Of a stretch of DNA of 64,000 bases, positions 15,346 to 50,340 are shown one piece after another; the stretch's first letter is position 1, and each line of letters begins with the position of its first letter. The notes beneath the pieces are model-generated. The model was not told the origin of the DNA. It was given only the letters and a program-made list of their open reading frames with translations, and searched no databases. A program made the translations under genes and the position numbers. This DNA comes from Bacteroidota bacterium (GTDB lineage Bacteria > Bacteroidota > Bacteroidia > Flavobacteriales_D > Crocinitomicaceae), in NCBI GenBank assembly GCA_016192075.1, contig JACPUU010000012.1:744001-808000 (forward strand), in the 5' to 3' direction.

Positions 15346-15534
15346 GCCAGATAAATTGAATCTGCAAGGAATGGGAGGGAATTTTCATTGGTTTCCGCTT
15401 CAAGGGCTTTAAGAGAATAATGAATAACGATTAACGAATAACGATTTAAGAAGTTAAACTATTGAAAAACAAACGATTAAATACTAAATTTCATCATTTG
15501 CTAATCATTATTCAGTGTTCACTATTTATTCCGA

Positions 15535-15757
15535 TGGCTTTCCTCCCTTGACCGCGTGTCGCTGTACGCCTATACTGACCTTGCTATGCCGTGAGCCTAT
15601 GCTGACCTTGCTATGCCGTAGCGGCTGCGCGAAGGCAACGAGCTCCGGCGTAAGCAGTGCGCGAAAACGAAGAGGGTGACAGCAAAAAGTCCACCCGGGA
15701 TATAACTATCAGGCTTAGACTGTCATCCCCCTCGATCCCCCTTCAAAGGGGGAAGGA
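15535..15757. repeat. Degenerate inverted-repeat element with internal 27-bp tandem repeat
   Basis: The left end, TGGCTTTCCTCCCTTGACCG (from 15535), matches the end seen at 49469. The arm closes with CGAAGAGGGTGACAGC at about 15668-15683. The right arm is TGTCATCCCCC...CCTTCAAAGGGGG (about 15720-15753). A tandem repeat of period 27 (15568-15621) with core TGACCTTGCTATGCCGT lies inside the left arm. The 189 bases to its left (15346-15534) are AT-rich with AATAACGATTAACG repeats and hold no gene. Confidence 0.55.
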
Positions 15758-15820
15758 CGATACTTAATATTTTACCACCAATGTTAATAAAATGCCTTAA
15801 GCATTCCCCTTCCTTTCAAC

Positions 15821-15828
15821 TATCTTTG
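15821..15828 (+). promoter_or_regulatory. Promoter -7 element for dnaX
   Basis: TATCTTTG is an exact TAnnTTTG match, 17 bases before the dnaX ATG, giving a leader of about 10 bases. Confidence 0.65.
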
Positions 15829-15844
15829 TTTTTCACGCATAATT

Positions 15845-16963
15845 ATGGGCAATTTTGTTGTTTCAGCGCGCAAATACAGGCCGCAAACATTTGAATCAGT
15901 TGTAGGACAGGGATCCGTTACGGTGACCCTGAAGAATGCAATTAAAAACAAACATTTAGCGCAGGCTTTCCTGTTTTTTGGAGGCCGCGGGGTTGGAAAA
16001 ACCACCACCGCGCGGATTCTGGCAAAAACCATCAACTGCCTGAATTTATCAGCCGATGTAGAACCCTGCAACCAGTGCGAATCGTGCAAATCATTTAACG
16101 AAGGGCATTCATTCAATATCCTGGAACTTGATGCGGCCTCTAACAACTCCGTCGATGATATCCGGAACCTGATTGACCAGGTACGCATTGCCCCGCAGAT
16201 TGGAAATCACAAAATCTTCATCATTGATGAGGTTCACATGTTGTCATCCCAGGCGTTTAATGCCTTTTTGAAAACGCTGGAAGAGCCGCCTGCACATGCT
16301 GTTTTTATTTTGGCTACAACTGAGAAACACAAAATTCTGCCAACGATTTTATCACGCTGCCAGATTTTTGATTTTCACCGCATCCAGATCAATGACATTG
16401 TCGGTCAGTTGAAACGCATTGCTGAAAAAGAAAACATCAAAACCGACGACCGTGCCCTGCACATTATTGCCCAAAAAGCAGACGGTGCCATGCGTGATGC
16501 CCTTTCTATTTTTGACCAGATTGTATCATTCAGCAACAGCAACGTAACGTATGAAGCGGTGCTTGAAAACCTGAACGTACTCGATTACGACTATTACTTC
16601 AAAGTCACTGACAGCGCACTTTCAGGCAACATTCCGGCAAACCTGCTTGCATACAATGACATTCTTTCCAAGGGTTTTGACGGCGGACAATTTTTGATCG
16701 GGCTGGCTGAACATTTACGCAATCTGCTTGTTTGCAAAGACGATAAAACAGTTTCATTACTTGAAGTGCCGGCCGATATTAAAACAAAATACCAGCAACA
16801 GGCCGCACAGGCTGACCAGGAATTTATACTGGTAGGACTTGATTTGCTGCGCGACGCCGAGATTCAGTTTAAGTCGGCCAAAAACAAACGGCTGATTGTC
16901 GAAATTTCCCTGATGAAATTTACATCCATTGTTTCATCACTTAAAAAACAGGCCGTATCTTAA
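15845..16963 (+). CDS. dnaX: DNA polymerase III clamp-loader subunit DnaX, gamma-like part
   Basis: DnaX is the ATPase of the clamp loader. This frame gives 372 residues covering domains I-III: Walker A in GGRGVGKTTTAR, four zinc-binding cysteines (CLNL...PCNQCESCK), Walker B in IFIIDEVHML, the SRC motif in ILSRCQIFDFHRI and sensor-2 GAMRDALSIFDQ. It ends QAVS-stop only four codons after an A6 run (16943-16948). The normal tau C-terminus is present downstream in the -1 frame. So either a one-base A deletion broke the gene (true mutation or assembly error), or slippage on A6 yields both a short gamma and a long tau of about 592 residues. Confidence 0.93.
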   Translation: MGNFVVSARKYRPQTFESVVGQGSVTVTLKNAIKNKHLAQAFLFFGGRGVGKTTTARILAKTINCLNLSADVEPCNQCESCKSFNEGHSFNILELDAASNNSVDDIRNLIDQVRIAPQIGNHKIFIIDEVHMLSSQAFNAFLKTLEEPPAHAVFILATTEKHKILPTILSRCQIFDFHRIQINDIVGQLKRIAEKENIKTDDRALHIIAQKADGAMRDALSIFDQIVSFSNSNVTYEAVLENLNVLDYDYYFKVTDSALSGNIPANLLAYNDILSKGFDGGQFLIGLAEHLRNLLVCKDDKTVSLLEVPADIKTKYQQQAAQADQEFILVGLDLLRDAEIQFKSAKNKRLIVEISLMKFTSIVSSLKKQAVS

Positions 16964-30256: not shown

Positions 30257-30289
30257 CCTCCCTAAATTCCTCCAAAGGAGGGACTTTTA
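30257..30289. repeat. Left terminal inverted repeat of DUF559 element 1
   Basis: The 33-bp arm begins CCTCCCTAAATTCC and includes the palindrome CCTCCAAAGGAGG (30269-30281). Its imperfect inverted copy is at 30771-30803. Together they enclose exactly one gene. Confidence 0.75.
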
Positions 30290-30342
30290 TTTTACGGTAA
30301 CGAAACGACTATTTGCGTTTTAAGACGATTAAATTTTGTTTT

Positions 30343-30765
30343 GTGATTAATACTGAAAAATCTGAGCGATCAGATATAGAAAACACCAGGCCCGGATACC
30401 AAACAGCCAACCTTTCCAAATACGGTATTCTGAAAAGTTTTCAGAAAGAGTTGAAAAAGAATCAGACACCTGCGGAAAAGGCTTTATGGAAGGAACTTCA
30501 GAATAAAAAAACAGGTTTCAAATTCAGAAGGCAACATGTCATTGCTGATCATATTGTTGATTTTGTTTGCCTCAGACAAAAACCGGTTGTTGAAGTTGAT
30601 GGTAAAATTCATCTGAATCAAATTGACAAAGACATGGCCAGAACCGAAAGACTTGCTGTAAAAGGATTTCGTGTTATCCGATTTACGAATGAAGAAGTAT
30701 TAGCGAATACAGCCAATGTCGTTTATAAAATAAAGGCATTTATTGAGTCCAATACAATAAAATAG
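30343..30765 (+). CDS. DUF559 endonuclease-like protein, element 1
   Basis: DUF559 is a PD-(D/E)XK-type nuclease family related to Vsr mismatch endonucleases. The protein (about 140 residues) has the family opening KNQTPAEKALWKEL, then TGFKFRRQHVIADHIVDFVC with the catalytic Asp, VVEVDGKIH with the acidic pair and His, and GFRVIRFTNEEVL. The core residues all appear intact. The start is uncertain: TTG 30313 or GTG 30343; the first in-frame ATG is internal. It sits alone between 33-bp inverted repeats, 6 bases before the right arm. No partner toxin, methylase or transposase is linked. Its role is unknown; the context suggests mobility. Confidence 0.85.
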   Translation: MINTEKSERSDIENTRPGYQTANLSKYGILKSFQKELKKNQTPAEKALWKELQNKKTGFKFRRQHVIADHIVDFVCLRQKPVVEVDGKIHLNQIDKDMARTERLAVKGFRVIRFTNEEVLANTANVVYKIKAFIESNTIK

Positions 30766-30770
30766 TGGTG

Positions 30771-30803
30771 GTTTAGTCCCTCCCCCGGCGGGATTTAGGG
30801 AGG
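30771..30803. repeat. Right terminal inverted repeat of DUF559 element 1
   Basis: Read on the minus strand it begins CCTCCCTAAATCCC, ends GGGAGGGACTAAAC, and matches the left arm (30257-30289) along its length with a few differences near the centre (CCGCCGGGG instead of CCTCCAAAGG). Confidence 0.75.
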
Positions 30804-48297: not shown

Positions 48298-48341
48298 TCT
48301 CACTGTTAATACAACCCTGGTTCTGAAAGACATACCTTTTG

Positions 48342-49364
48342 ATGCTTCACGCTAAAATCCATAAACACACCCTTATCTTCAAACAGGCCAGTGGTACCTC
48401 CCGTGGGGTATTGCACACAAAAAATTCGTGGATTATTGAGCTGTCTGATGACACTGCCCCTGGCATTGTAGGAAAAGGCGAGGCCTCCATTATTGAAAAT
48501 TTATCGCCGGACTGGAATGGAGCGTATGAAACCAAACTGGCTGAAATCTGTGAACATGTAAATCATTACGTCCCTCAAAAACTGGAAGAACTTTGCAACG
48601 TTCCTTCTATTCGTTTTGCACTGGAGGCTGCTTTGCTTGATTTGAAAAACGGTGGTTGTGAAATTTATTTTCCGTCTGAATTTACAACCGGCAAAAAATC
48701 CATTCCCATCAACGGCCTGATCTGGATGGGCAGCAAAGAATTTATGCAGCAGCAAATCCAGGAGAAAATTGAAGCTGGCTATCGTTGTCTAAAATTAAAA
48801 ATTGGTGCCATTGATTTTGAAACGGAGTTAGAATTACTCAAATCCATCCGCCAGAAATTTTCAAAAAACGAAATTGAATTGCGGGTAGATGCCAACGGTG
48901 CCTTTTCAGCAGAAGATGCGCTGTCTAAATTAGATCAACTGGCAAAATTTGATTTACATTCCATTGAACAACCTATCCGGCAGGGGCAACATGAAGCCAT
49001 GCAAAAATTGTGTGCCTCCACCCCACTCCCCATTGCCCTGGACGAAGAACTTATTGGGGTAACTGACCCTGAAAAAAAAGCAGCACTGCTCACATTTATT
49101 GTTCCTCAATATATCATTCTGAAACCAAGTCTGGTGGGTGGATTTCAAAGTTCAGACGAGTGGATTTCACTGGCTGAAAAAAATAACATTGGCTGGTGGA
49201 TTACCTCTGCCCTCGAAAGTAATATCGGGCTGAATGCCATAGCGCAATATACCTTCACTAAAAACAATTCCATGCCGCAGGGTTTAGGAACGGGGCAGCT
49301 TTATACGAATAATTTTCCGTCGGGGTTGACCATTGAAAAAGGGAGATTGAGTCTTCTTTGTTGA
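48342..49364 (+). CDS. menC: o-Succinylbenzoate synthase (enolase superfamily)
   Basis: MenC dehydrates SHCHC to o-succinylbenzoate in menaquinone synthesis. From ATG 48342 (a TTG lies just before) the protein has 340 residues. The barrel residues of the muconate-lactonising-enzyme branch are present: two lysines in CLKLKIG (about 151-153), metal ligands in RVDANGAF, SIEQPI and ALDEEL, and the second catalytic Lys in IILKPSLVGG (about 262), then SALESNIGLNAIAQ. The members of this branch with KPS-GG are usually OSBS; dipeptide epimerase is a less likely alternative. The last seven codons are part of a tandem duplication downstream. No other men gene is adjacent. Confidence 0.85.
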   Translation: MLHAKIHKHTLIFKQASGTSRGVLHTKNSWIIELSDDTAPGIVGKGEASIIENLSPDWNGAYETKLAEICEHVNHYVPQKLEELCNVPSIRFALEAALLDLKNGGCEIYFPSEFTTGKKSIPINGLIWMGSKEFMQQQIQEKIEAGYRCLKLKIGAIDFETELELLKSIRQKFSKNEIELRVDANGAFSAEDALSKLDQLAKFDLHSIEQPIRQGQHEAMQKLCASTPLPIALDEELIGVTDPEKKAALLTFIVPQYIILKPSLVGGFQSSDEWISLAEKNNIGWWITSALESNIGLNAIAQYTFTKNNSMPQGLGTGQLYTNNFPSGLTIEKGRLSLLC

Positions 49365-49648
49365 AGTAAGAACAAGGATTAACGATTTAAGATTTTTGAT
49401 TTCTTTTCTAATTGCATAACCGATGTTCTGCCAATACGAATTAAAGGTTCATTTTAGATTCTTTGTACTGGCTTTCCTCCCCTTGACCGCTTGTCGGATT
49501 GAGTCTTCTTTGTTGAAGTAAGAACACGGATTAACGATTTAAGATTTTTGATTTCTTTTCTAATTGCATAAGCGATGTTCTGCCAATACAAATTAAAGGT
49601 TCATTTTAGATTCTTTGTACTGGCTTTCCTCCCTTGAGGGAGGACTAA
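49345..49648. repeat. 152-bp tandem duplication including the menC 3' end
   Basis: Unit 1 (49345-49496) and unit 2 (49497-49648) share about the first 130 bases with only a handful of changes, for example AACAAGG/AACACGG and ATAACCG/ATAAGCG. Unit 1 starts inside menC (ATTGAGTCTTCTTTG codes its last residues). Each unit ends in a repeat-element end (TGGCTTTCCTCC...). Unit 1 ends in a variant, CCTTGACCGCTTGTC, like the element at 15535; unit 2 continues into the full palindrome. Confidence 0.85.
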
Positions 49649-49800
49649 GGAGGGTGACTGCAAACACCCTTAAAAACTAAAACCACCTATCATTGAATTA
49701 CTGTTACTGTCACCCTCGCCTCCGCTAAAGCTTTAGCGGAGGCGCAGGGAGGACTAAGGCTTTGCTACGCTGAAGCTATGCGAAAGCGAAGAGGGTGACC
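49628..49800. repeat. Left composite arm of DUF559 element 2
   Basis: It begins with the palindrome CCTCCCTTGAGGGAGG (49628-49643) and ACTAAGGAGGGTGAC, then about 50 unrelated bases, GTCACCCTCGCC, a perfect 26-base palindrome (49718-49743, centre AAAGCTTT), GCAGGGAGGACTAAGG and a second inner arm ending GCGAAGAGGGTGACC. It therefore looks like a gene-less element placed directly beside the arm that borders the DUF559 gene. Confidence 0.75.
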
Positions 49801-49841
49801 GCAAAGGTTCACGATTACCAAACATTTTGTATTTTCAACGG

Positions 49842-50228
49842 ATGACTTTCGACAACAATTTTTACAACCCTAGCCTTAAAGCGTATGCCCGGGAGTTGAG
49901 AACAGAAACAGTCTCCAGGGCTGAAAAAATTCTTTGGAAGGCTATTTTATCCCGAAAACAAACCGGACAACGATTTCTGCGTCAACGTCCAATTGATCAC
50001 TTCATTGTTGATTTTTTCTGCCCAGAACTTAGGCTCATTGTAGAAATTGACGGCAATTCACACTTTCACAAACCAGAATATGACGCATGGAGACAAAATA
50101 AGTTAGAAGCATTGGGATACCAGATGCTTAGATTTAATGAAGGTGCTGTAATTAATCAACTGGATGATGTTTCACGACAAATTGATCATGCGATTTATTG
50201 TTTAAAATCAGGGGCCAGGATTGGCTAA
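49842..50228 (+). CDS. DUF559 endonuclease-like protein, element 2
   Basis: From ATG 49842 the protein has 128 residues with the DUF559 plan: YNPSLKAYARELRTETVSRA, AEKILWKAILSRKQTG, FLRQRPIDHFIVDFFCPELR (catalytic Asp), LIVEIDGNSHF (acidic pair and His) and GYQMLRFNEGAVINQL. It is clearly diverged from the copy at 30343, so the two are separate acquisitions. Its stop is 3 bases before the right arm, and its start lies about 40 bases after the left arm. No other gene lies between the arms. The active-site residues appear intact, so it may still cut DNA. Confidence 0.88.
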   Translation: MTFDNNFYNPSLKAYARELRTETVSRAEKILWKAILSRKQTGQRFLRQRPIDHFIVDFFCPELRLIVEIDGNSHFHKPEYDAWRQNKLEALGYQMLRFNEGAVINQLDDVSRQIDHAIYCLKSGARIG

Positions 50229-50230
50229 TA

Positions 50231-50263
50231 CTGTCACCCCTCTGTGTCTCCCCTCAAGGGGAG
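50231..50263. repeat. Right arm of DUF559 element 2
   Basis: CTGTCACCCCTCTGTG followed by the palindrome CTCCCCTCAAGGGGAG (50248-50263) is the inverted counterpart of the outer and inner pieces of the left arm. Bases 50264-50340 hold no gene. Confidence 0.75.
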
Positions 50264-50340
50264 AAAACTGGTGTATCTGTTCTTTCTCTAACGCAAAATG
50301 TACGAATTCAAGATCGTTGTACTTTGCTTCTTCCCCTCAA

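Follow-up and report, generated by a model that had tools for sequence, protein, structure and literature searches.

A DUF559 gene lying between inverted, related repeats raises the question of whether gene and repeats form one unit, and of what kind this unit would be. Such a gene was found in a 64-kb stretch of DNA from a Bacteroidota genome, here called the window and 64,000 nucleotides long. The original prediction described it as the second and diverged DUF559 gene of the window, bordered by palindromic arms, and argued for a real partnership of nuclease and repeat with co-evolved arms. The features of this locus are as follows.

49842..50228, plus strand: DUF559 gene of the RFLRQR ('FL') type, ATG start (the open reading frame list starts at TTG 49827)
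49627..49658, plus strand: outer left arm, intact and pointing to the gene, TCCTCCC ttga GGGAGGA cta AGGAGGG followed by the tag TGAC; stem and mirror third tract perfect
50233..50264, minus strand: right arm, intact and pointing to the gene, TCTCCCC ttga GGGGAGA cac AGAGGGG followed by the tag TGAC; stem and mirror third tract perfect
49705..49801, plus strand: inner left region, with an inverted partner relic (GTCACCCTC...), a decayed inward arm (CAGGGAGGACTAAGG...AAGAGGGTGACC) and other palindromes lodged inside (49717-49744 perfect)
49345..49648, plus strand: 152-bp tandem duplication left of the element, 98% identity over 137 nt at a spacing of 152; the arm ends each copy, the first truncated after TTGA

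The gene product of 128 residues matched DUF559 (PF04480, E 5e-30) with 103.9 bits, above the Pfam membership cut-off of 20.6, and was 35% identical in alignment to the product of the DUF559 gene at 30343; the description as a second, diverged member was therefore confirmed. Three DUF559 matches exist in the window genome in all. In an alignment, E28, D57, E68, D70 and H74 were found invariant among 25 relatives. The AlphaFold model (pLDDT 88.4) had its best PDB match by Foldseek with the DUF559 structure NGO0050 (3hrl, E 1.6e-6); weaker matches were I-Bth0305I (3r3p, 0.009), PvuRts1I (0.03) and Vsr (1vsr, 0.12), and unrelated mitoribosomal chains also appeared. By the modelled fold and the invariant E, D, ExD and H, the protein is a Vsr-like PD-(D/E)XK nuclease of predicted activity. 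Vsr and the EDxHD homing endonucleases, to which the Foldseek matches are weak, have the nuclease fold in common with it, but we know of no triplex motifs flanking them, and the window element was seen to contain neither intron nor intein. In the open-licence PMC literature we found no report of DUF559 activity on such arms.

Read toward the gene, an arm consists of a pyrimidine stem, a short loop, a purine stem, a gap (usually of 3 bases), a third purine tract and a short tag, and the third tract repeats the purine stem in mirror order. The palindrome noticed in the original prediction is present, but it makes up only part of this arm. The inverted relation of the borders was also borne out: the best inverted pair around the gene is 49625-49658 with 50233-50266, 34 nt long and 76% complementary. 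The left border had been placed at an arm ending AAGAGGGTGACC. This arm exists near 49800, with the ATG at 49842 about 40 bases further on, but it is the decayed inner one, and beyond it lie the partner relic, which begins at about 49709, and the intact outer arm, also matched by the genome-wide pattern (G000:C12:793627). On the right the arm does adjoin the gene, and with its tag it begins 4 bases past the stop codon. The tag end AAGAGGGTGAC occurs three times in the window, against 0.02 expected. The two arms of this one gene have different stem patterns (AGGGAGGA and AGGGGAGA) and both obey the mirror rule, so the stem pattern is not protein-specific.

We searched the 64-kb window with a detector for a hairpin plus mirror third tract, and obtained five motifs, four of which flank the two DUF559 genes. 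First-order Markov controls of the window contained 0.32 motifs per 64 kb (maximum 3 in 60 controls), and no motif in the 60 controls reached the score of 14 that both arms of the 49842 gene have. The tandem duplication at the left side includes the end of the upstream gene (48339-49364), and could have arisen when replication stalled or switched template at the arm. Other GC-rich palindromes (e.g. GCCTCCGCTAAAGCTTTAGCGGAGGC) were seen lodged in the hairpin loop or gap of arms (49717-49744, 15555-15670, L215 and L223); it looks as if structured loops are tolerated, and a second palindrome family may be riding in the arms.

The mirror rule was examined in 100 genomes of the window's family by a pattern that fixed only purine or pyrimidine at the variable tract positions. 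Among the matches listed, 145 of 150 were perfect mirrors, while shuffling the third tracts among the matches gave 54.6 on average and at most 73. The rule holds in six stem patterns, and the control pattern, read backwards, had no match in the 100 family genomes. A looser scan, in which both strands of each palindrome are mixed, gave a weaker mirror excess (mean 0.62 versus 0.57 when permuted, permuted maximum 0.58). Neither duplex recognition nor hairpin formation gives mirror symmetry an evident purpose, but an antiparallel purine-motif triplex requires it, as described in the introduction of PMC4666352. Judged from sequence, the arm has the characteristic anatomy of a class II (purine) antiparallel intrastrand triplex, with Y stem, R stem and mirroring third tract, and this is the fold predicted for it. 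A G-quadruplex would need neither the paired pyrimidine stem nor the mirror order, and some stem patterns are without four G-runs.

Among the closest known systems are the TM/TMECO (PIT) motifs of Holder et al. 2015 (PMC4666352), which also have a hairpin and a purine third tract of the class II purine motif. The Bacteroidota arms differ from TMECO by shorter stems and by tags matching the protein type; the 9-nt TMECO sub-type stem CCCTCNCCC is absent from the window stems TCCTCCC(T) and TCTCCCC(T). According to the same source, the triplex was stable for single strands only, neither in duplex nor in vivo by DMS; folding in single-stranded form has been demonstrated for TMECO only (discussion of PMC4666352). 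Inverted motif pairs are described there in five cases, with copy numbers uneven among related strains. Holder et al. state that mobility functions were never found near TMECO, and the main text has no words starting with nuclease, endonuclease or DUF (PMC4666352).

Two further loci of the window bear motifs of this kind.

30343..30765, plus strand: second DUF559 gene, KFRRQH (YcjD-like) class, GTG start, PF04480 E 3e-33
30257..30283, minus strand: left triplex-like motif of this gene, pointing away; one stem and one mirror mismatch, low score of 8
30777..30803, plus strand: right triplex-like motif of this gene, pointing away; one stem and one mirror mismatch, low score of 8
15538..15755, no strand assigned: gene-less inward pair of a decayed arm (TTTCCTCCCTTGA...AAGAGGGTGAC) and an intact arm at 15722-15753 on the minus strand with tag TGAC

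The two DUF559 loci had been thought to share the same plan. Flanking motifs are indeed found at both, but the orientation differs, the arms of the 30343 gene pointing outward. Arm orientation varies with protein class: it is outward in the YcjD-like gene of the window, the leuS inserts, E. coli (one side) and Deinococcus, and mostly inward in the FL and FK types (variation seen at 30257-30803; L001, L114; L140, L210; L113). No open reading frame of at least 60 aa covers the pair at 15538-15755 in the list for 15500-15980. In the window genome the pattern matched nine intact TG motifs. Two flank the 49842 gene, and five of the other seven head gene-less inward pairs (L215, L220 and L223 by pattern; L216 and L217 by eye), one of them being 15538-15755. 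The partner arm or its relic lies within about 110 bp, which is too close for a gene between and gives the pairs a MITE-like form.

The association of motifs with DUF559 genes was then counted over 75 of 80 loci, near-copies included, five truncated loci (L082-L084, L090, L091) being dropped. In the first 250 bp beside the gene there were 3.8 motifs per kb; the density dropped to 0.7 per kb between 250 and 500 bp, and to about 0.03 at distances over 1.5 kb. A motif lay within 250 bp at 27 of 28 RFLRQR loci, 12 of 14 KFKRQR loci, all four KFNRQR loci and none of the seven DFHRQK loci. Several domains of the DFHRQK class (L093, L094, L096, L105) belong to open frames about 500 residues long and again lack a motif in that range; the class may be a separate subfamily that does not move. 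When arms up to 400 bp away are considered, the one closest to the gene points to it on 86 of 109 gene sides, and both arms point inward in 28 of the 39 loci having arms on both sides; counting all arms in this range, 106 face the gene and 69 face away. Local alignment of left against right flanks, with 18 duplicates dropped, recovered the arms, but mixed with long direct repeats at many loci.

The original prediction proposed that the arm type should follow the protein clade. A protein tree of 89 loci was built, five truncated loci being left out; its alignment is short and the tree weakly resolved. The majority tag was TG-type (TGAC-like) at 28 loci of the RFLRQR clade (none at 2) and GGA at 26 loci of the KFKRQR-and-like clade (none at 4), so that within the two main clades the tag agrees with the clade wherever there is a tag, at 54 of 54 loci. 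A GGA arm is present in addition at one RFLRQR locus (L051). The co-evolution claimed for the arms therefore applies to the majority tag behind the third tract, but not to the stem. Over the whole tree GGA and TG exchange three times, and a single change suffices between the two main clades; the agreement of trees that had been anticipated was thus obtained, but taken alone it is weak, and for this reason the copies were tested genome-wide.

For this test, 100 family genomes were typed by 52 loci; weak or broken matches (e.g. G016, G027, G044, G086) were left untyped, and two loci were scored '?'. With the arms beside DUF559 genes included in the counts, TG arms occurred in all 15 genomes with an FL protein (mean 18.9) versus 12 of 85 without (mean 0.66), and GGA arms were present in 19 of the 20 FK-bearing genomes (mean 6.8) versus 26 of 80 without an FK protein (mean 1.4). 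We permuted types within genera (20,000 permutations, floor p 5e-5), genus strata being the phylogenetic control. The TG-FL pairing gave the floor value of 5e-5, the same after subtracting two arms per carrier, and the GGA-FK pairing gave 5e-5, also the floor, and 5e-4 after the subtraction. Of the mismatched pairs, TG with FK gave p 0.85 overall and 0.60 within genera; GGA arms were commoner with FL (p 0.006 overall), weakly so within genera (p 0.02), a value that stands because the two-arm subtraction is proper for matched pairs only. Of the 67 family genomes lacking both FL and FK proteins, 23 still had intact arms, so the arms outlive or do without a resident gene. The nuclease-repeat partnership is hence strongly supported, by motif density near the genes, arm facing, agreement of tag and clade, and genome-wide enrichment of copies.

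Sites with and without the element could be compared in leuS, a site chosen because DUF559 genes lay there and not at random. The loop concerned lies before the motif VFTTRPDT; of the 21 family genomes with a match, 18 carry no intact motif in this loop. A single GGA-type motif was found there in G013 and a single TG-type motif in G010. In the window's genome the loop holds a motif-DUF559-motif unit in frame, within an open frame of 1276 aa without stops; in the insert the invariant acidic residues and the His are conserved, and no other leuS match was found in this draft genome. Intact single motifs occur in the same loop in 4 of 13 genomes of the genus of G010 (two per tag type), three more looking decayed, and Aureibaculum flavum again has motif-DUF559-motif in frame. 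By these comparisons, the leuS loop is occupied in some species and empty in others, a pattern by which mobile elements are recognised. Two other genes, a metH and a TPR-SpoIIE gene, likewise contain DUF559 in frame. In the leuS of the window's genome (L001, contig C19), short repeats encoding QGSLRSEEEQ-like peptides precede the DUF559 insert, and the loop region is 256 residues long versus about 32 in relatives. Another in-frame repeat expansion, SDSEQ-like, was observed in the same loop of genome G109 (L198), so inserts may favour this loop in general. Rickettsia palindromic elements are likewise short palindromic DNA inserted in frame in protein genes, a feature in common with the window family; we know of no partner nuclease for them.

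Outside Bacteroidota we examined 17 DUF559 loci, E. coli K-12 and 16 of 43 plasmid records, of which eight were chosen for taxonomic spread (seven with a motif near) and eight were added later (four with one). A motif lay within 300 bp at 12 of the 17 loci, compared with 0 of 340 shuffles that keep base content only, and five loci had no motif within this distance. Density was 1.7 per kb near and 0.14 far. Two Deinococcus loci have perfect motifs on both sides of the DUF559 gene. YcjD of E. coli is a DUF559 protein with a TMECO motif 3' of ycjD, which by coordinates is no. 9 in the table of PMC4666352. Queried with the K-12 ycjD locus, 3362 of 5426 E. coli genomes covered at least 80% of it in one place, and at least 14 genomes (H26-H39) retain only 123 bases on the fabI side. 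A clean empty site was not seen in two E. coli strains without ycjD, where other genes adjoin fabI. At the adk-hemH TMECO site the strain difference is a replacement and not a clean insertion. The pstB-pstA site of E. coli has a polymorphic 92-bp unit with the 8-bp repeat AACCGTGT at both ends, fitting either insertion with duplication or repeat-mediated deletion.

We consider it likely that the window holds a copy of a mobile-element family, in which a gene of a DUF559 (Vsr-like PD-(D/E)XK) nuclease lies between inverted ends that would form triplexes. The anatomy, the mirror rule, the association, the type matching and the occupied and empty sites between species were all demonstrated in sequence, and mobilisation by the nuclease is what we infer. 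The purine strand, when single-stranded in lagging-strand synthesis or repair, would fold at the end into a hairpin and then into an antiparallel R.R:Y triplex. The nuclease would read the folded end together with its tag, TGAC-like for RFLRQR proteins and GGA for KFKRQR proteins, and nick beside it; through host repair, the nicked strand may then be released or be copied to new sites. The nuclease would serve its own gene in cis and the gene-less copies in trans. To our knowledge, a PD-(D/E)XK enzyme alone does not join strands, so host repair would complete the move or the enzyme would only start it. RAYT and the REP/BIME repeats follow the same plan, in which inverted palindromic repeats enclose one small nuclease gene and the genome has many further copies that lack it, and in this the two families are alike. 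They differ in that the RAYT enzyme is an HUH Y1 enzyme and its repeats have a GTAG-type head, whereas the window enzyme is Vsr-like and its ends have a mirror third tract; the gene between the window repeats encodes DUF559 and not a Y1 HUH transposase.

Other readings of the same data need to be weighed. DUF559 might instead clear structures, cutting triplex or hairpin blocks in repair or processing, with motifs multiplying by replication slippage and template switching and staying beside the gene for regulation or by chance survival. The Vsr-like fold (a weak match), the persistence of arms in genomes without the gene, and the tandem duplication ending at the arm, which resembles a stall footprint, would suit this, as would VsrA, a Caulobacter DUF559 protein linked to DNA damage, for which action on T:G mismatches in mismatch repair has been proposed (PMC12907096). 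Such a role does not readily explain the type-matched tags, the paired inverted ends around the gene, or the single motifs and whole motif-gene-motif units in one leuS loop, and as a full account we regard it as unlikely; DUF559 could still have it as a second role beside mobilisation. We hold it quite improbable that the gene is a free-standing homing endonuclease, copied in by break repair after cutting its target, with the arms as passenger structure. I-Bth0305I is the second-best PDB match, though a weak one (E 0.009), and lodging in frame in leuS and metH resembles intein-like sites. The host sites, however, are many and unrelated, gene-less motifs also sit in the leuS of several species, and in the leuS and metH frames Pfam at E 0.001 recognised nothing besides host domains, DUF559 and MTES_1575, and no intein domain; a self-splicing host element was found neither there nor, as an intron, by Rfam in 30200-50400.

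It is very improbable that DUF559 is a bystander, the arms being ordinary REP-like repeats which a Y1 (HUH) transposase such as RAYT moves in trans. Y1_Tnp matches occur in 69 of 100 family genomes (six matches in the window genome) and GGA arms are commoner in Y1-positive genomes (p 0.009), but TG arms do not track Y1 (p 0.13), six FL/FK genomes without a Y1 match carry matched arms (G035, G043, G067, G072, G073, G089), and a match of tag to protein type would not be expected. We give still less credence to bidirectional terminators or regulatory RNA hairpins of the gene. Palindromes do lie near both gene ends; nevertheless the mirror tract would serve no ordinary RNA pairing, a motif stands in frame inside leuS, and no Rfam family reached the gathering score within 30200-50400.

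Beyond the window family, there is about an even chance in our judgement that intrastrand triplex repeats across bacteria have in DUF559 proteins the partner enzymes so far missing, TMECO and YcjD of E. coli included, with ends read as folded triplexes, protein and tag co-specific, and in-frame lodging in essential genes. Among the papers listed from the open-licence PMC literature, none joins DUF559 to triplex repeats by title and abstract start. Triplex-forming repeats are abundant in bacterial genomes, and the papers considered here name no enzyme for their origin or spread. A tag-matched nuclease offers a direct handle on this question, with one protein, one oligonucleotide and one mirror-tract mutation. 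If the reading as a mobile element is true, the element would be one whose DNA is recognised by its triplex shape, and DUF559, annotated as of unknown function, would gain a role. Strain differences in the number of triplex motifs could then be explained, and the leuS insert would add to the cases in which an essential enzyme tolerates selfish DNA in its reading frame.
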